DNA from: Candidatus Paceibacter sp.
GTDB lineage: Bacteria; Patescibacteriota; Minisyncoccia; Phycocordibacterales; JABAAK01
Reading direction: 5' to 3'
NCBI GenBank assembly: GCA_014238475.1
Contig: JABAAZ010000003.1
Coordinates: forward strand, 1-11,623
DNA: 11,623 nt
Under the pieces are notes generated by a model. The model was given only the letters and a program-made list of their open reading frames with translations. It ran no database searches and had not been told where the DNA came from. The translations under genes were made by a program, and so were the position numbers. The number at the start of each line of letters is the position of its first letter. The first letter of the stretch is position 1. Positions 10 through 9,454 of the stretch are shown in pieces.

Positions 10-73
10 AAAAAACAAAAACCACTCATTTTTAAATTATAATCTGTGTAAACACAGAATTTAAAAATGAGTG
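10..73 (-). terminator. Intrinsic terminator of array gene 1
   Basis: A strong inverted repeat: arms 23-38 and 58-73 pair perfectly over 16 bp, then after a 5-nt bulge a further 5 bp pairs (44-48 with 53-57). Read on the minus strand it is followed by a U-rich tail (complement of the A runs at 10-21). It lies just downstream of the stop of the first small ORF. Confidence 0.85.
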
Positions 74-91
74 ATACCCCGTGGTATTTTT

Positions 92-460
92 TTATTTGTG
101 GGAGAGACTGTTGCCCTCGATTGCTTTTTCTGAAACAAGGTACCAACCCTTCTTGATGCTCAAACTGCTTACAAATCGTTTGTACTGGTCTTTTGTATAC
201 AAAATTCCAAACTGTAAGACAATTGAACCTCGTAATGGATTCAGATAAGTACAGACTAAAACCTCATTGTTTTTAATGCTCTTCCATCGAGGTCTTCGAC
301 GTAGTTTTTTTCCATGTTTTTCCAGGAAAGCTTCTTCAAAATCATGATAGTGCATATATAGACGGTGATCTATTTCTGCGAAATCATCCTGCTCCTTTAT
401 CCACTTGTCATCAAGCTCTACCCTAAACAGCCCACAAAAAAAATAATAAATTTTATTCAT
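92..460 (-). CDS. Array protein 1, unknown small family (long form, 122 aa)
   Basis: I do not recognise this protein. I chose the ATG at 460 rather than a TTG at 520, because from 460 the N-terminus (MNKIYYFFCGLF) aligns with that of array protein 3 (MRKLKYYFFQMFG), both proteins become 122 aa, and the upstream part is occupied by a conserved leader hairpin. The shared family core starts with LEKHGKKL, continues through a strand ending in EVLVC, and closes near the C-terminus with a GWYLV aromatic motif. The N-terminal stretch is aromatic and mildly hydrophobic but is not a convincing signal peptide. It has its own promoter, leader and terminator, so it is a monocistronic unit in a row of five. 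No Shine-Dalgarno is visible. Function unknown. Confidence 0.75.
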   Translation of the reverse strand: MNKIYYFFCGLFRVELDDKWIKEQDDFAEIDHRLYMHYHDFEEAFLEKHGKKLRRRPRWKSIKNNEVLVCTYLNPLRGSIVLQFGILYTKDQYKRFVSSLSIKKGWYLVSEKAIEGNSLSHK

Positions 461-543
461 AAGAATAATAATATGTACAGTCTTGTGTTTAAACAATAAA
501 CAAGACTGGGGGTTGAACAAACTATAGTAGGAAACTACTATAG
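461..543 (-). promoter_or_regulatory. Structured 5' leader of array gene 1
   Basis: Two stem-loops in the predicted leader. Hairpin 1 (522-530 with 535-543, perfect 9 bp, 4-nt loop) begins exactly at the predicted first transcribed base. Hairpin 2 (CAGTCTTG 478-485 with CAAGACTG 501-508, perfect 8 bp) ends 17 nt before the ATG. The same layout recurs before the other four array genes; this copy has a C-G/G-C pair in hairpin 2 where copies 3-5 have A-T/T-A. Confidence 0.7.
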
Positions 544-549
544 ATTAGT

Positions 550-578
550 ATTATATACTATTGTGTAGAATATGTCAA
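550..578 (-). promoter_or_regulatory. Sigma70-type promoter of array gene 1
   Basis: On the minus strand, TTGACA (573-578), a 17-bp spacer and TATAAT (550-555): both hexamers match the consensus perfectly. Predicted start near 543. Confidence 0.85.
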
Positions 579-593
579 TATTTTGAATTGTTT

Positions 594-650
594 TAAAAAA
601 CAAATATAAAAATAGAGATCCACTCAATCCTGTAATAAGATTAAGTGGAT
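594..650 (-). terminator. Intrinsic terminator of array gene 2
   Basis: ATCCACT (618-624) pairs with AGTGGAT (644-650), and AATC (626-629) with GATT (639-642) after one mismatch. The minus-strand tail is U-rich (complement of 594-617). It lies 18 nt past the stop of array gene 2. Confidence 0.75.
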
Positions 651-668
651 TTTCTTGGAAGGAAAGAT

Positions 669-953
669 TTATCCATTACTATCAGAAGCAGTTTTAACCG
701 CAGCTTTCGGAACAAAAAACCACATTTTAGGCACGCTTTCATCTTTTTTACAGGAGCTGTACTCTTCATTTGTGGATAGTATGACTGTTTTTCTCCTCCC
801 GTCTAAAAAATAGGAGCATATTAAAACCTTGTCGGATGGAATATCAGAAAACTCTGGTATCTTAGTGTGTTCTAATATTTTACCGTCGTGAGTTGCACAG
901 TATTTTTCTATCGAAAGACCTTTTGGAATAGATAAGCAATGTTCTATTTTCAT
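669..953 (-). CDS. Array protein 2, unknown small family (short form, 94 aa)
   Basis: Unrecognised. The ATG at 953 is preferred over a TTG at 974, since the TTG falls inside the 3' arm of leader hairpin 2 and the shorter form (MKIEHCLSIPKGLSIEKY) lines up with the starts of array proteins 4 and 5. The core is recognisable but most diverged: IEKYCATHDG replaces the usual YLEKHG, followed by IPSDKVLICSYF with the family-wide cysteine and by MWFFVPKAA at the aromatic motif. No signal peptide or transmembrane helix is evident. Own promoter, leader and terminator. Function unknown. Confidence 0.75.
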   Translation of the reverse strand: MKIEHCLSIPKGLSIEKYCATHDGKILEHTKIPEFSDIPSDKVLICSYFLDGRRKTVILSTNEEYSSCKKDESVPKMWFFVPKAAVKTASDSNG

Positions 954-1048
954 AGATTTGTATTTTTTGTACAACCTTGTTATTGTGATTTACAAGATTG
1001 GTTTTTGATTAAAAATAAAGAAATATAGTAGCAACATGACTACTATAG
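954..1048 (-). promoter_or_regulatory. Structured 5' leader of array gene 2
   Basis: Hairpin 1: TATAGTAG (1024-1031) with CTACTATA (1040-1047), 8-nt loop, one base inside the predicted start. Hairpin 2: CAACCTTG (972-979) with CAAGATTG (993-1000); the single non-identical position is a G-U wobble in the minus-strand RNA, so the stem is kept. Hairpin 2 ends 18 nt before the ATG. Confidence 0.7.
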
Positions 1049-1054
1049 ATTAGT

Positions 1055-1083
1055 ATTATATACTCTTGCAAACAATGTTCCAA
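1055..1083 (-). promoter_or_regulatory. Sigma70-type promoter of array gene 2
   Basis: Minus strand TTGGAA (1078-1083), 17-bp spacer, TATAAT (1055-1060). The bases between the -10 box and hairpin 1 match those of copy 1. Confidence 0.8.
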
Positions 1084-1099
1084 GATTTATTTAAATTTA

Positions 1100-1156
1100 A
1101 AAAATATAAAAATCAAACCCGCTTTAAAATATGTATAAACATATCATAAAAGCGGG
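1100..1156 (-). terminator. Intrinsic terminator of array gene 3
   Basis: CCCGCTTT (1118-1125) pairs with AAAGCGGG (1149-1156), with inner ATATGT/ACATAT pairing. The minus-strand transcript then runs into a U-rich tail. Confidence 0.8.
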
Positions 1157-1183
1157 AGATTACCTTTTTTGCAAACATTTCTG

Positions 1184-1552
1184 CTAAAAAGGGTAGTCGG
1201 AATTTTTGCCTTGAAGACGATGAACAGGGAAAATATGCCAAAATAATACTGTATTTACACTCTTCACACACCTATCATACTGAGCAGGATTATCTATAAT
1301 ACCAGCATAAACCCTTTTTGATCCTAAATGATCAGTCGCTATATAAACGCATATCAAAAAGTATTCCCTAGAAATTTTTTTCGATCTTCGCTGCCACCAC
1401 CGAAGTTGTGTCCCATACTTTTCCAGGAGTTTCAACTCATATCTTGGGGTTAAATGGTATTGTATTTTACCCATCTTATTCCAATGTTTTTTATCTTCTT
1501 CGGAAAGTTTGATTCCAAACATCTGAAAAAAATAATATTTTAGTTTTCGCAT
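1184..1552 (-). CDS. Array protein 3, unknown small family (long form, 122 aa)
   Basis: Unrecognised. Same length as array protein 1 and sharing its N-terminal extension (Y-F-F-x-x-M/L-F-x-I/V-x-L), which the three short members lack. The core reads LLEKYGTQL, then REYFLICVYI with the conserved cysteine, and FWHIFPVHRL at the aromatic motif. The ATG at 1552 lies 14 nt after leader hairpin 2 and has no Shine-Dalgarno in front of it. Basic and aromatic residues are abundant (KKHWNKMGK, RWWQRRSKK), so nucleic-acid or membrane contact is possible, but this is speculation. Own promoter, leader and terminator. Confidence 0.8.
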   Translation of the reverse strand: MRKLKYYFFQMFGIKLSEEDKKHWNKMGKIQYHLTPRYELKLLEKYGTQLRWWQRRSKKISREYFLICVYIATDHLGSKRVYAGIIDNPAQYDRCVKSVNTVLFWHIFPVHRLQGKNSDYPF

Positions 1553-1651
1553 AGAAATAGTTTGTGCAATCTTGTTGATATTGTGCTTTACAAGATTGGG
1601 TTTTTATTAAAAATTAAGAACAAACAAATAGCAGCAGCACAACTACTATAG
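1553..1651 (-). promoter_or_regulatory. Structured 5' leader of array gene 3
   Basis: Hairpin 1: ATAGCAG (1628-1634) with CTACTAT (1643-1649); the one changed position becomes a U-G wobble in the minus-strand RNA; 8-nt loop. Hairpin 2: CAATCTTG (1567-1574) with CAAGATTG (1591-1598), perfect 8 bp, ending 14 nt before the ATG. Confidence 0.7.
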
Positions 1652-1657
1652 ATTAGT

Positions 1658-1686
1658 ATTATACACTCTCGCAGACAATGTTCCAA
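1658..1686 (-). promoter_or_regulatory. Sigma70-type promoter of array gene 3
   Basis: Minus strand TTGGAA (1681-1686), 17-bp spacer, TATAAT (1658-1663). It abuts the U-tract of the terminator of array gene 4, so modules are packed end to end. Confidence 0.8.
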
Positions 1687-1722
1687 CAAAAAAAACCGCC
1701 AAGCTGTTGCAAACTTGGACGG
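1687..1722 (-). terminator. Intrinsic terminator of array gene 4
   Basis: Arms beginning CCGCCAAG at 1696 and ending CTTGGACGG at 1722 pair with one bulged base. On the minus strand the stem is followed by eight U residues (complement of 1688-1695). Confidence 0.85.
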
Positions 1723-1747
1723 GTAAAAATAAACAACAAAATAATTT

Positions 1748-2014
1748 TTATTTGAACAAACAGAGTGCATTTTTAGGAAAATACCAGTTTTCTAGTATTT
1801 TATCATTGTTTTTATAGTCATCAAAATGTTCTTTTCTATAGACTACATCATAGTACTTGTTTTTTTCATACTTAAAATAACATACCAAAAATTTATCGTC
1901 TGGAATCATGTTCCATTTTTTTGGCATCTTTTTTAACTTCGTTCCGTGTTTTTCCAGATATTCTTCTGAAGAACATCCATACCCAGGGCGCAAAGGATTA
2001 AATGGTTTCATCAT
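1748..2014 (-). CDS. Array protein 4, unknown small family (short form, 88 aa)
   Basis: Unrecognised. It begins MMKPFNPLRPGYG; the second ATG (2011) aligns with the start of array protein 5 and may be the true start. The core is the clearest of the five: EEYLEKHGTKL, then W-N-M-I-P-D-D-KFLVC, a basic/aromatic strand (KYYDVVY) and NWYFPKNA. Closest relative is array protein 5, with roughly half of the positions identical by eye. No signal peptide or membrane helix. Own promoter, leader and terminator. Function unknown. Confidence 0.8.
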   Translation of the reverse strand: MMKPFNPLRPGYGCSSEEYLEKHGTKLKKMPKKWNMIPDDKFLVCYFKYEKNKYYDVVYRKEHFDDYKNNDKILENWYFPKNALCLFK

Positions 2015-2110
2015 TTATTTTAGTTTTTTCAATCTTATTACTGTTATGCTTTACACAGCAAGATTGACTATTGGACATTAAAAAAGAAAAAAGGTAGCAG
2101 CATAACTACC
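2015..2110 (-). promoter_or_regulatory. Structured 5' leader of array gene 4
   Basis: Hairpin 1: GGTAG (2093-2097) with CTACC (2106-2110), 8-nt loop, starting at the predicted first base. Compared with copies 1-3 the fifth pair is G-C instead of A-T, a change on both sides. Hairpin 2: CAATCTT (2030-2036) with AAGATTG (2060-2066), with an inner CTGT/ACAG helix (2041-2044 with 2055-2058). Confidence 0.7.
2021..2072. repeat. 52-bp identical leader repeat, copy A
   Basis: Identical base for base to 2511-2562 (offset 490). It covers hairpin 2 and flanks of the leader of array gene 4. The identity is far higher than between the adjoining coding regions. Confidence 0.9.
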
Positions 2111-2116
2111 ATTAAT

Positions 2117-2145
2117 ATTATATACTGTCGCAGACAATGTTCCAA
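2117..2145 (-). promoter_or_regulatory. Sigma70-type promoter of array gene 4
   Basis: Minus strand TTGGAA (2140-2145), 17-bp spacer, TATAAT (2117-2122). Predicted start at 2110, the first base of hairpin 1. Confidence 0.8.
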
Positions 2146-2146
2146 C

Positions 2147-2193
2147 CAAAGAAAAACAGAAACCGCCTACGCTCATAATAAGCTTTGGCGGTT
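2147..2193 (-). terminator. Intrinsic terminator of array gene 5
   Basis: AACCGCC (2161-2167) pairs with GGCGGTT (2187-2193), with an inner GCT/AGC helix. The minus-strand tail is U-rich (complement of 2147-2160). Confidence 0.8.
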
Positions 2194-2218
2194 TGAAATC
2201 AAATAAAAAAGAATTTTT

Positions 2219-2500
2219 TTATTTATAGAAATAGGTTACAGAGAGGGTTTTCTCTTGTGGAAGATACCAGTATTTTAGTATTGTAGTCTTGCTTTTATAG
2301 TAAGCAAGATGTCCTTCTGTAAAGATTACAGCATAGAGTGTGTCTTTCTTATGTTTAAAAGAGCATACCAAAAATTTATCTTGTGGAATATTATTCCACT
2401 TTGGCTCTGGTTTGCTGTTCAACTCCTCTCCATGTTTTTTAAGATACTGTTTTGGAGAAACCCCTTTTTTAGTAGGGCACAAAGAATGAAATGGTTTCAT
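2219..2500 (-). CDS. Array protein 5, unknown small family (short form, 93 aa)
   Basis: Unrecognised. It begins MKPFHSLCPTKKG, followed by the family core: KQYLKKHGEEL, KWNNIPQDKFLVCSF with the conserved cysteine, LYAVIF, and YWYLPQE. It is the nearest paralogue of array protein 4 and shares with it a 52-bp identical leader segment. It is the first module in transcription order. The ATG sits 19 nt after leader hairpin 2 without a Shine-Dalgarno. No membrane or export signal. An opposite-strand ORF over this gene (2309-2557) is a shadow. Confidence 0.8.
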   Translation of the reverse strand: MKPFHSLCPTKKGVSPKQYLKKHGEELNSKPEPKWNNIPQDKFLVCSFKHKKDTLYAVIFTEGHLAYYKSKTTILKYWYLPQEKTLSVTYFYK

Positions 2501-2601
2501 AGTTTTGTATTAGTTTTTTCAATCTTATTACTGTTATGCTTTACACAGCAAGATTGACTATTAGGCATTAAAAAACGAAAAGAGGTAGAAGCATAGCTAC
2601 C
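2501..2601 (-). promoter_or_regulatory. Structured 5' leader of array gene 5
   Basis: Hairpin 1: GGTAG (2584-2588) with CTACC (2597-2601), 8-nt loop, starting at the predicted first base. Hairpin 2: CAATCTT (2520-2526) with AAGATTG (2550-2556), plus the same inner CTGT/ACAG helix as copy 4. Confidence 0.7.
2511..2562. repeat. 52-bp identical leader repeat, copy B
   Basis: Second copy of the segment at 2021-2072; it contains the complete hairpin 2 of array gene 5. Confidence 0.9.
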
Positions 2602-2607
2602 ATTAGT

Positions 2608-2636
2608 ATTATCTACTATTACATACAATATGTCAA
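2608..2636 (-). promoter_or_regulatory. Sigma70-type promoter of array gene 5
   Basis: Minus strand TTGACA (2631-2636), 17-bp spacer, GATAAT (2608-2613). Spacing to hairpin 1 is the same as in the other four copies. Confidence 0.8.
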
Positions 2637-2753: not shown

Positions 2754-3386
2754 TTAAAAAAATTGTGATATAAATTTTTCTGCTTTTTTAAACACCAAAG
2801 GAAGTGTTGAGCAATAATTTGTTTCTGTGTCTATAAAGTTTTGTAATTCGTCAGGAGTAAGCCATTTGAAGTCGGCAACTTCGTCGTCTACAAAGATAAC
2901 ATTTTGTGTAGGAACAGCAACAAAACCAAGTCCGACCCATTCGTTGTCTTTTTCAGTTTTGTAATGAAATTTGTCAAAAATAAAACCAACAGCTTCTTTT
3001 GCTTCTTTTGCACTTTCTACAAACGAACTCACATCTTCAAACATTTTTAAATTAATTCCAATTTCTTCTTGTGCTTCTTTTTTCAAATTTTCACTAAAAT
3101 CTAATGGAATATAGTTGTCGTTCTGTTTTTGATATATATTATGTCCAGCTACACCTATATCCCACTTTCCAGCTGTGAGTTTGTCTAAATTAGCAGAGCT
3201 CTTTAATTGAATTCCATATTTACCTGATGGTAAATGATAAATCATTGACCAAGTACTATAGTGTGTTAGGTTGGCTCGGACACCTTCAGTGTGTGCGTGT
3301 ATTTTTGAGATTGGGCCAATAATATTTCCTTTGTTGTCCGAGTGAATGGAATATTCAATATCATCTCGTAATTTTATATGTGCCAT
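2754..3386 (-). CDS. Nudix hydrolase (210 aa)
   Basis: Nudix enzymes hydrolyse nucleoside diphosphates linked to another group, using Mg2+ held by the Nudix box. Here the box core is KKEAQEEIGI (about residues 102-111), with lysine where the usual arginine stands in REUxEExGU; its glycine end is probably WDIGVAGH (75-82), separated from the helix by a longer insertion than normal. The preceding region (HAHTEGVRANLTHYSTWSMIYHLPSGKYGIQLKSSANLDK) has the look of the isopentenyl-diphosphate isomerase/YfcD-like Nudix branch: histidines, then a strand, then a glutamine-rich strand. The late FKWLTPDEL motif is typical of Nudix C-termini. Substrate cannot be assigned. The gene is flanked by two copies of one terminator and stands alone between ssrA and the array. 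Confidence 0.8.
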   Translation of the reverse strand: MAHIKLRDDIEYSIHSDNKGNIIGPISKIHAHTEGVRANLTHYSTWSMIYHLPSGKYGIQLKSSANLDKLTAGKWDIGVAGHNIYQKQNDNYIPLDFSENLKKEAQEEIGINLKMFEDVSSFVESAKEAKEAVGFIFDKFHYKTEKDNEWVGLGFVAVPTQNVIFVDDEVADFKWLTPDELQNFIDTETNYCSTLPLVFKKAEKFISQFF

Positions 3387-3477: not shown

Positions 3478-3490
3478 GGGTTTTATCTTG

Positions 3491-3853
3491 TGGAGATGGA
3501 GGGAGTTGAACCCTCGTCCGAACAAAGTCAGAGAAAGCGTCTACATAGTATATCCTGTTTTAAATCTTTCGAAATGAAACTCTAAGCAGGCAAAATATTT
3601 CACTCGGCAGTTCCTAAATACTTCTTTAATCGGAACAAATTAAAAAAGGTTGCCTCAAGTTTTACGCATCATGTGGTTATGAGACATCACCACAAGACAC
3701 GGCCTACATTAAGCGTAAGCTAAAGCCGGCACCTTAAAAAAGGATTCGACTTTTGCAAATATGTTTTTTGCAACTTTTCGATTTTTTAGAGAAATCTATA
3801 ACTCGCTATGCAACTTTCAAAGATTATTTTGCCGTCAAAGCCTACACACCCCC
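3491..3853 (-). ncRNA. ssrA: tmRNA (transfer-messenger RNA)
   Basis: Rescues stalled ribosomes with SmpB: it acts as an alanyl-tRNA, then supplies a short reading frame that tags the broken protein. The tRNA-like end is clear: 5' GGGGGTG (3853-3847) pairs with 3' CATCTCC (3498-3492) using two G-U pairs, discriminator A at 3491, and a T-arm GAGGG-TTCAACT-CCCTC. The conserved TTTGACGGC block follows the 5' end. No CCA is encoded (C-A-A follows the discriminator), so CCA must be added. The tag frame is listed separately. Length, about 363 nt, is normal. smpB is immediately upstream on the same strand, and the pair is probably one transcript processed at a hairpin junction. Confidence 0.95.
3709..3771 (-). 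other. tmRNA tag reading frame
   Basis: Resume codon GCA at 3771-3769, 83 nt from the tmRNA 5' end (E. coli uses nt 90). The frame gives a 20-residue tag that starts A-K-N-I and ends A-L-A-Y-A, stop TAA at 3711-3709. A second in-frame GCA at 3756 would give a 15-residue tag with the same end. Confidence 0.8.
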
Positions 3854-7645: not shown

Positions 7646-7666
7646 ATGTATATATTATATTTTATG

Positions 7667-7739
7667 TGCGTTCGATAGGACTTGAACCTATAACCGGTCG
7701 TGTATAAGACGACTGCTCTACCAATTGAGCTACGAACGC
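7667..7739 (-). tRNA. tRNA-Ile (anticodon UAU)
   Basis: A standard 73-nt cloverleaf: acceptor GCGTTCG/CGAACGC with discriminator A, D-stem GCTC/GAGC, anticodon stem GTCGT/ACGAC, 7-nt loop CTTATAC, variable CGGTT, T-arm ATAGG-TTCAAGT-CCTAT. The anticodon at 7706-7704 reads UAU, which decodes AUA. Isoleucine identity features known from E. coli are present: A73, U12-A23, C29-G41 and U36-A37; C4-G69 is not (it is U-A here). CCA is not encoded (C-A-T follows). Most bacteria instead use a CAU tRNA modified with lysidine for AUA. Confidence 0.9.
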
Positions 7740-8590: not shown

Positions 8591-9049
8591 ATGGATGAAA
8601 ACAAAAAAGCGATTTTTGCAGCTGGATGTTTTTGGGGAGTTGAAGATAAATTTAGTAAAATACCAGGAGTTACTGATGTAAAATCAGGATACATAGGTGG
8701 AACGACGGACGATCCTACATATGAAAGTGTTTGCAGCGGCACAACCGAACACGCAGAAGCGGTGGAGGTAATATATAAAGAAGATGCTGTCAGCTATGAA
8801 AAATTAGTGGATTTTTTCTTTCAAATACACAATCCGTCTACAAAAGACAGACAAGGATTTGATGTGGGTAGTCAGTACAGATCAGCTATTTTTTATATTG
8901 ATGAAGAACAAAAGGAAATTGCAACAAATGTGAAAAACAAAATAGAAAAAGAAAAAGGGATTAAGATAGTTACAGAGATCACAAAAGCAAAAACCTTTTA
9001 TGATGCAGAAGAATATCATCAGGACTATATACAAAAGAGAAATACTTAA
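8591..9049 (+). CDS. msrA: Peptide methionine-S-sulfoxide reductase MsrA (152 aa)
   Basis: Reduces the S-epimer of methionine sulfoxide in proteins. The catalytic motif GCFWG is at residues 12-16 (C13), followed by SGYIGG, the VCSGTTEHAEAV signature, HNPSTKDRQGFDVGSQYRSAIFY, and the FYDAEEYHQDY end motif. The only other cysteine is C48 in VCSGTT; the C-terminal recycling cysteines of E. coli MsrA are absent, so regeneration may need direct attack by an external reductant. No signal peptide is seen, so it appears cytoplasmic. It starts 3 nt after the spondin-like gene and ends 6 nt before msrB; co-translation is likely. Confidence 0.96.
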   Translation: MDENKKAIFAAGCFWGVEDKFSKIPGVTDVKSGYIGGTTDDPTYESVCSGTTEHAEAVEVIYKEDAVSYEKLVDFFFQIHNPSTKDRQGFDVGSQYRSAIFYIDEEQKEIATNVKNKIEKEKGIKIVTEITKAKTFYDAEEYHQDYIQKRNT

Positions 9050-9055
9050 TAAAAT

Positions 9056-9454
9056 ATGGAACACAAAAAAGAAACAAAGGACGAACTAAGAAGAAGAATA
9101 GGGGACACAGCATATGATGTCACACAAAATGCTGGATCAGAGATGCCGTTTACAGGCAAGCACAACAGCACAAAAGACAAAGGAACATTTAAGTGCATGG
9201 TTTGCGGACAAGAGTTATTTGACTCAAAAACAAAGTTTGACTCCGGAAGTGGTTGGCCAAGTTTTTATGATGCGTATAAACCAGACTCAGTAAAACTTCT
9301 ACCAGATGGTTCACACTTCTCACACAGGACTGAAGTTAGGTGTAACAAATGTGATGCTCACTTAGGGCATGTGTTTGATGATGCTATAGATCAACCAACA
9401 CAAAAAAGATTTTGTATAAACTCCGTGGCTCTTGATTTTAAAAAGGAACAATGA
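9056..9454 (+). CDS. msrB: Peptide methionine-R-sulfoxide reductase MsrB (132 aa)
   Basis: Reduces the R-epimer of methionine sulfoxide, complementing MsrA. Zinc ligands C47, C50 (CMVC) and C96, C99 (CNKC), GSGWPSF (65-70 region), the histidine-rich HFSHRTEVRC stretch, LGHVFDD, and the catalytic cysteine C120 in RFCINSVAL. Where many MsrB proteins carry a recycling cysteine in GCGWPSF, this one has serine, as many one-cysteine forms do. It ends with TGA, which overlaps the start of the next gene as ATGA. It is a separate gene rather than an MsrAB fusion. Confidence 0.96.
   Translation: MEHKKETKDELRRRIGDTAYDVTQNAGSEMPFTGKHNSTKDKGTFKCMVCGQELFDSKTKFDSGSGWPSFYDAYKPDSVKLLPDGSHFSHRTEVRCNKCDAHLGHVFDDAIDQPTQKRFCINSVALDFKKEQ

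Follow-up and report, generated by a model that had tools for sequence, protein, structure and literature searches.

A lineage-specific tandem array of five small, diverged genes with similar predicted two-hairpin leaders in Candidatus Paceibacter

Introduction

Phage morons are small genes that carry their own promoter and terminator. The tandem esaG and tipC immunity paralogues, in the portion of their published description used here, change through recombination at blocks of homology (PMC9484751), and extended polyimmunity loci are reported, in the sections of PMC3482391 that we draw on, only from lineages other than the present one. Here we describe a tandem array of five small paralogous genes in Candidatus Paceibacter sp. 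(Patescibacteriota; assembly GCA_014238475.1, contig JABAAZ010000003.1). The window, which is the whole stretch analysed, is 11,623 nucleotides long. Each gene in the array has its own predicted promoter, two-hairpin leader and terminator, and the leaders are more alike than the proteins that they precede. The array and its leader have good support, and the function is inferred. Tentatively, we read the locus as a repertoire of small binding proteins that diverge quickly and serve in genetic conflict, similar to immunity or defence genes and expressed through a shared structured leader. This is a possible role and not yet a probable one.

Organization of the array

The five units (u1 to u5) lie in tandem on the minus strand, from position 2636 down to 23, and each consists of a promoter, a two-hairpin leader, an open reading frame (ORF) and a terminator. 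Their ORFs encode 122, 94, 122, 88 and 93 amino acids, from u1 to u5. An initial annotation of this DNA had proposed the same five units, and the ORF, promoter, fold and hairpin evidence places them where it did. The window is an entire contig (C33) that ends at base 1, so further units past this base are possible. The assembly itself is 307 kb long, 73% complete and divided among 95 contigs; the small size of the relatives' genomes suggests a member of the Candidate Phyla Radiation.

Promoters of the sigma-70 type are predicted for u1 to u5 with 12, 10, 10, 10 and 11 of 12 consensus bases and a spacer of 17 nucleotides in every case. Eight sites in the window score at least 10 of 12, and five of these are the array promoters. 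The total number of promoter-like sites in the window (52) shows no clear excess over shuffled sequences (mean 42.3, standard deviation 8.3), so the prediction draws its weight from the likeness of the five aligned sites. Sites resembling terminators are more frequent than expected from shuffles (23 versus 6.2). A hairpin with a T-rich stretch occurs 3' of all five ORFs, and the general terminator scan by itself lists those of u2 and u4. No Shine-Dalgarno-like motif is found within the 25 nucleotides upstream of the ATG in any unit. The features of the array are as follows.

2608..2636, minus strand: u5 promoter, 11 of 12 consensus bases, 17-nucleotide spacer (promoter scan)
2584..2601, minus strand: u5 leader hairpin 1, loop complementary to the hairpin 2 loop by 7 Watson-Crick pairs (predicted fold)
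2520..2556, minus strand: u5 leader hairpin 2 (predicted fold)
2219..2500, minus strand: u5 ORF, 93 amino acids (ORF call, alignment)
2160..2194, minus strand: u5 terminator hairpin (hairpin and T-rich stretch)
2117..2145, minus strand: u4 promoter, 10 of 12, 17-nucleotide spacer (promoter scan)
2093..2110, minus strand: u4 leader hairpin 1, loop complementary to the hairpin 2 loop by 7 Watson-Crick pairs (predicted fold)
2030..2066, minus strand: u4 leader hairpin 2 (predicted fold)
1748..2014, minus strand: u4 ORF, 88 amino acids (ORF call, alignment)
1696..1722, minus strand: u4 terminator hairpin (terminator scan; hairpin and T-rich stretch)
1658..1686, minus strand: u3 promoter, 10 of 12, 17-nucleotide spacer (promoter scan)
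1628..1649, minus strand: u3 leader hairpin 1, loop able to form 7 Watson-Crick pairs with the hairpin 2 loop, with a compensated change relative to u4 (predicted fold)
1567..1598, minus strand: u3 leader hairpin 2 (predicted fold)
1184..1552, minus strand: u3 ORF, 122 amino acids, N-terminal extension (ORF call, alignment)
1118..1156, minus strand: u3 terminator hairpin (hairpin and T-rich stretch)
1055..1083, minus strand: u2 promoter, 10 of 12, 17-nucleotide spacer (promoter scan)
1024..1047, minus strand: u2 leader hairpin 1, without loop pairing (predicted fold)
972..1000, minus strand: u2 leader hairpin 2 (predicted fold)
669..953, minus strand: u2 ORF, 94 amino acids (ORF call, alignment)
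618..650, minus strand: u2 terminator hairpin (terminator scan; hairpin and T-rich stretch)
550..578, minus strand: u1 promoter, 12 of 12, 17-nucleotide spacer (promoter scan)
522..543, minus strand: u1 leader hairpin 1, 4-nucleotide loop, without loop pairing (predicted fold)
478..508, minus strand: u1 leader hairpin 2 (predicted fold)
92..460, minus strand: u1 ORF, 122 amino acids, N-terminal extension (ORF call, alignment)
23..73, minus strand: u1 terminator hairpin (hairpin and T-rich stretch)

The -10 region also contains an imperfect inverted repeat, AGTAT-ATA-ATACT (window 535-567 and the equivalent place in the other promoters). It is complete in u1 and u2 and has one altered arm in u3, u4 and u5. 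This repeat could be an operator, or it could have arisen by chance.

Conservation and predicted fold of the leader

The predicted leaders are 83-101 nucleotides long. Promoter-leader identity ranges from 65 to 88% and exceeds protein identity in all ten pairs of units, for instance between u2 and u3, whose leaders are 84% identical and whose proteins are 18% identical. Between u4 and u5 the leader distance is 0.13 versus a synonymous distance (dS) of 0.48, or about 3.6-fold less. On these comparisons the leader appears to be either constrained or homogenised. Because it is less diverged than the adjacent synonymous sites, the view that it is conserved for what it does, probably as a folded 5' module, is well supported.

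Each of the five leaders is predicted to form two hairpins. Their folding energies relative to shuffled sequences give z scores of -5.2, -4.2, -2.0, -2.9 and -1.8 for u1 to u5, of which those of u3 and u5 are marginal. Changes on both sides that preserve a stem occur at one pair in hairpin 1 and at one pair in hairpin 2. In u3, u4 and u5, seven Watson-Crick pairs can form between the loops of hairpins 1 and 2 (shuffle P = 0.0044, 0.0038 and 0.006, respectively), and a compensated G-C/A-U change within this pairing distinguishes u3 from u4. When loop pairing is included, 89.7% of the cells of the structure pair, versus 29-51% when the structure is slid. The two hairpin loops of u3 to u5 therefore probably kiss; with only five related sequences to compare, this contact is probable and not proven. 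A T-rich stretch follows hairpin 1 on its 3' side in u4 and u5.

The protein family

Pairwise identities among the five proteins are 18-46%, and K, L, I, L, C and W are conserved throughout their alignment. The L-[VI]-C cysteine, the late tryptophan and the K/T-H/Y-(D)G motif each occur in every protein, and an aromatic N-terminal extension is found in u1 and u3 only. In these respects the initial annotation, which had called the proteins clearly paralogous and strongly diverged and had listed the same motifs, reads the family correctly. Profile searches of a 5.8-billion-protein database yield ten distinct members, namely the five window proteins and P0006, P0008, P0009, P0010 and P0012, all recognisably like one of the five units. 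The three protein searches returned 7, 7 and 3 rows; two entries, P0007 and P0011, represent u2 and u3 of the window annotated from different starts and are not counted as distinct. P0009 and P0010 come from contigs of 5,728 and 18,291 bases, and P0006 and P0008 from one of 2,167 bases. The family is almost restricted to close strains. P0012 is 66-67% identical to u5, P0010 is 86% identical to u1, and P0006 is a near-identical relative of u4. Across the ten sequences M, L, G, L, I, L, C and W are invariant, and L, K and H are nearly so.

No Pfam family scores above the cut-off for any of the five proteins, the best being the WG repeat in u1 with an expectation value (E) of 0.12, and none of the ten matches NCBIfam or PADLOC. 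By sequence, the family is a near-orphan and novel with respect to the libraries searched. It had been described as unrecognised, and the profile search then suggested as a check has found no described family. Limited literature searches turned up no published account of this array. The protein profile matches only the array's own genome at the family level (1 of 8) and in a phylum sample (1 of 379). At the order level it matches 4 of 397 genomes, three of them weakly and outside the array's own genome (E = 9.6e-5 to 0.0038). These three were set aside as chance, also because no leader was found in those genomes: the L006 match has a stop inside, the L007 match lies within a 478-residue frame, and the L008 match covers 34 positions.

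Structure prediction had been suggested as well. AlphaFold2 gives u5 a compact alpha/beta fold (predicted local distance difference test 80, predicted template modelling score 0.73) and u1 a less certain one (69.7 and 0.65), and structure comparison found no confident match among solved or viral structures. A predicted strand (42-50) contains the invariant cysteine; u3 has tyrosine in place of the family histidine. In papain-like peptidases, the catalytic cysteine is at the start of a helix and has a histidine partner.

Location behind tmRNA

The array lies on the 3' side of the transfer-messenger RNA (tmRNA) gene, together with one further gene.

2754..3386, minus strand: NUDIX-domain gene, in the same variable slot and outside the array (library scan)
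3488..3853, minus strand: tmRNA gene, with the array and the NUDIX gene on its 3' side (Rfam)

This slot was compared in the five family relatives that have a tmRNA above the Rfam cut-off (six of eight genomes with the array's own); two genomes of the same genus have no tmRNA above the cut-off and fall outside the comparison. SmpB and FtsH are encoded beside the tmRNA in all five relatives, and uracil-DNA glycosylase in four. The array proteins and the NUDIX protein are found in none of the five tmRNA regions, and no NUDIX gene of this kind occurs in the seven other family genomes. Two relatives have restriction-modification genes here. In L042 (4278-6173) these are a type II restriction enzyme (PADLOC REase_II, E = 1.1e-64) and a DNA methylase (PF01555, E = 7.3e-38). 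In L038 (3975-8118) they are a specificity subunit (PF01420, E = 9.1e-27) and an N-6 methylase (PF02384, E = 1.8e-32), in a slot that also holds a hydrolase and a helix-turn-helix protein. The L039 slot contains ORFs without a Pfam match (three scanned, two of these also by PADLOC), and the L041 slot contains orotidine monophosphate decarboxylase and transporter-like ORFs (one protein scanned). The array thus occupies a variable slot that two of five relatives use for restriction-modification, and the content 3' of the tmRNA varies as in a genomic island.

This location, together with the autonomous promoter-ORF-terminator form of the units, also suits an origin in a former mobile element, as counter-defence or moron cassettes that would act on a protein of the host or of a rival element and would have remained in the slot after tmRNA. 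In PHROGs, residues 33-72 of u4 weakly match phrog_8788, a phage family of unknown function (E = 4.4e-4), as does P0006 (E = 0.003). One of 14 control genomes, Deinobacterium chartae, matches phrog_8788 too. However, the match spans just 40 of 180 profile positions, well short of most of the profile, and involves two of the ten proteins. A tblastn search of 50,697 phage records found no match for P0001, and the sole match of P0004 to phage records is at E = 3. In viral_contigs, ten pattern matches to P0001 could not be confirmed and P0005 had none. Among the window ORFs there is no integrase or other mobile gene, as judged from the ORF list and from library scans of some of the proteins. We consider this origin rather unlikely. 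Searches of other collections were similarly empty: P0005 has no tblastn match among plasmids, none of 277 pattern matches was confirmed in a protein scan of genome_contigs with A5, and the promoter pattern occurs in neither genome_contigs nor viral_contigs, from which close records may be left out.

Elsewhere in the window, a tRNA-Ile gene (7666-7739, anticodon TAT as DNA) has the same neighbours in one relative, L040. Two adjacent ORFs at 8591-9454 resemble, by eye, what we take to be methionine sulfoxide reductases A and B.

Divergence and exchange among units

Only u4 and u5 are close enough for an estimate of the ratio of nonsynonymous to synonymous divergence (dN/dS), the other pairs being too diverged. 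This ratio is 0.73 with a bootstrap interval of 0.35-1.74, which spans 1, and YN00 gives 1.24. The differences at codon positions 1, 2 and 3 number 31, 21 and 25, a pattern that fits relaxed constraint as well as diversification. Constraint on the proteins therefore appears to be weak or offset by diversification, and positive selection is neither shown nor excluded by this pair. Selection to keep several variants, which the initial annotation had proposed, is plausible on these figures and unproven.

Different segments of a unit have different closest relatives. In the 35-nucleotide promoter, the identity of u4 to u2 and u3 is 89-91% versus 74% to u5, and u1 is nearest u5 (86%). The last 60 nucleotides of the leader give 96% identity between u4 and u5 and 80% between u2 and u3. 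The u4 ORF is nearest that of u5 (46% amino acid identity). The u3 leader is nearest that of u2, yet its ORF has the N-terminal extension that is common only to u1. Outside the window, P0010 is identical to P0001 at residues 68-106 and differs on both sides. Because promoter, leader and ORF differ in their closest relatives, these identities suggest exchange between units.

The same data could describe a stress or housekeeping family that was tandemly duplicated for dosage and then drifted, its leaders kept alike by gene conversion and not by function. The dN/dS estimate, with an interval from 0.35, and the flat codon-position pattern agree with such drift, and conversion could explain the likeness of the leaders. 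The changes on both sides of the stems are not expected from conversion alone, however, all five ORFs are still open, and absence from seven family relatives would be odd for a housekeeping gene. This history, too, seems to us rather unlikely.

Distribution of the leader

A covariance model of the leader finds five matches in the array's own genome, all within the array, and a 25-nucleotide core occurs at three places, also all in the array. The model has no match in the seven other family genomes, and none in 396 other order genomes under stricter filters with ten candidates scored per genome. At the leaders no Rfam family exceeds its gathering score; only tmRNA, RNase P and tRNA pass in the window. 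Rfam matches to CrcZ at 434-490 on the plus strand (21.1 bits versus a gathering score of 95) and to mir-32 at 15-81 are at chance level and were rejected.

A conserved, kissing two-hairpin fold directly after the predicted transcription start, with no Shine-Dalgarno-like motif behind it, might also be expected of a riboswitch-like leader that senses a metabolite or temperature and governs a regulon of paralogues. The Rfam result and the confinement of the leader to this one array argue against it, as does the partial loss of the fold in u1 and u2, and we regard such sensing as quite improbable.

A possible conflict repertoire

The explanation that we tentatively prefer, a repertoire of binding proteins for genetic conflict, would combine these observations as follows. 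The locus would consist of five cassettes in tandem, specific to this lineage and each transcribed independently. A hairpin at the extreme 5' end may shield and steady each mRNA, giving like and high expression of all cassettes. The proteins would be small soluble binders that diversify after duplication against a changing partner, and units could exchange segments through their similar leaders, with the leader serving as the homology block. The likeliest partner would be a product of genetic conflict, either a competitor's toxin or a phage or mobile-element factor, because the slot behind tmRNA in which the array lies is variable and, in some relatives, is occupied by restriction-modification genes. 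Such an array would work in the manner of immunity genes rather than as an enzyme operon. That it is a new kind of variable-protein repertoire, in which promoter and kissing-hairpin leader act both as expression module and as homology block for new variants, is an unlikely extension of this idea.

Several observations weigh against a conflict repertoire. No recognised defence gene is present in the slots of L039, L040 and L041, that of L040 being judged by ORF list only, and no toxin gene is seen beside the array. None of the proteins matches a known immunity (Imm/SUKH) or defence family, in Pfam for the five or in NCBIfam and PADLOC for all ten. A second tmRNA 3' end, which would mark an attachment (att) site, is absent at up to three mismatches from the array's own 73%-complete assembly, so insertion is unproven. 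The loops of u1, whose first loop has four nucleotides, and of u2 can form at most three pairs. The pair statistics are weak, since 41 of 500 shuffles reach the count of both-side changes and 19 of 500 reach the paired share. Both the dN/dS interval and the codon-position counts given above allow simple relaxation, and exchange is read from identities rather than from a formal recombination test. Finally, polyimmunity proteins are synthesised at once, according to the relevant part of PMC3482391, unlike the products of five private units.

The initial annotation had supposed that each unit has separately tuned expression. This is not favoured, since the promoters and leaders are alike and point to the same control for all units. 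The slot lends indirect support to its suggestion of a defence-type role, and the family searches lend none. What the present analysis adds to that first reading is the likely loop-loop contact, the location, the distribution, the differing closest relatives of each segment and the lack of a Shine-Dalgarno-like motif.

A very small genome should not afford five separately transcribed gene copies. That the copies are kept, with a leader more conserved than adjacent synonymous sites, suggests a strong need. If the locus is a conflict repertoire, then it would show how bacteria with such small genomes defend themselves, and it would provide a compact case of a diversifying family whose constant block is a regulatory RNA instead of the coding sequence. 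In addition, the leader offers a kissing-hairpin mRNA module that is open to experimental test. This case rests on one contig and a few outside proteins.

Comparison with known systems

A reading of the units as five type III-style toxin-antitoxin pairs, in which each leader RNA would neutralise the protein of its own transcript, is very improbable and leaves the earlier toxin-antitoxin guess unsupported: a folded RNA with putative tertiary contacts precedes a small ORF as in ToxIN and CptIN, and the T-rich stretch 3' of hairpin 1 in u4 and u5 would suit this scheme, but each ORF has one two-hairpin leader and no tandem antitoxin repeats, u1 and u2 are without loop pairing, no ToxN/CptN/TenpN-type or other toxin family is matched in Pfam, NCBIfam or PADLOC, and leaders and proteins do not co-diverge, the similar leaders and dissimilar proteins of u2 and u3 being the opposite of cognate pairs. 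Phage morons differ from the array, whose five paralogues stand next to one another and adjoin core genes, with no phage relative found.

Homogeneous polyimmunity loci, as presented in the part of PMC3482391 considered here, are closer. Like the array, they consist of several tandem paralogues from a single small family, have no toxin next to them and show limited phyletic spread. Those loci encode known immunity families, whereas no Imm family is matched here by Pfam. For this reason we describe the array as working like an immunity array and not as being one.

The T7SS (type VII secretion system) esaG and tipC loci, in the portion of PMC9484751 cited above, are likewise strings of non-identical small paralogues with exchange at more-similar blocks. 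Their similar blocks are in the genes and downstream intergenic regions, and here the block is the promoter-leader. Those loci accompany a known toxin; in the present locus none was seen, and promoter and terminator are private to each unit. In its layout, the locus is a variant of the known tandem paralogue arrays.

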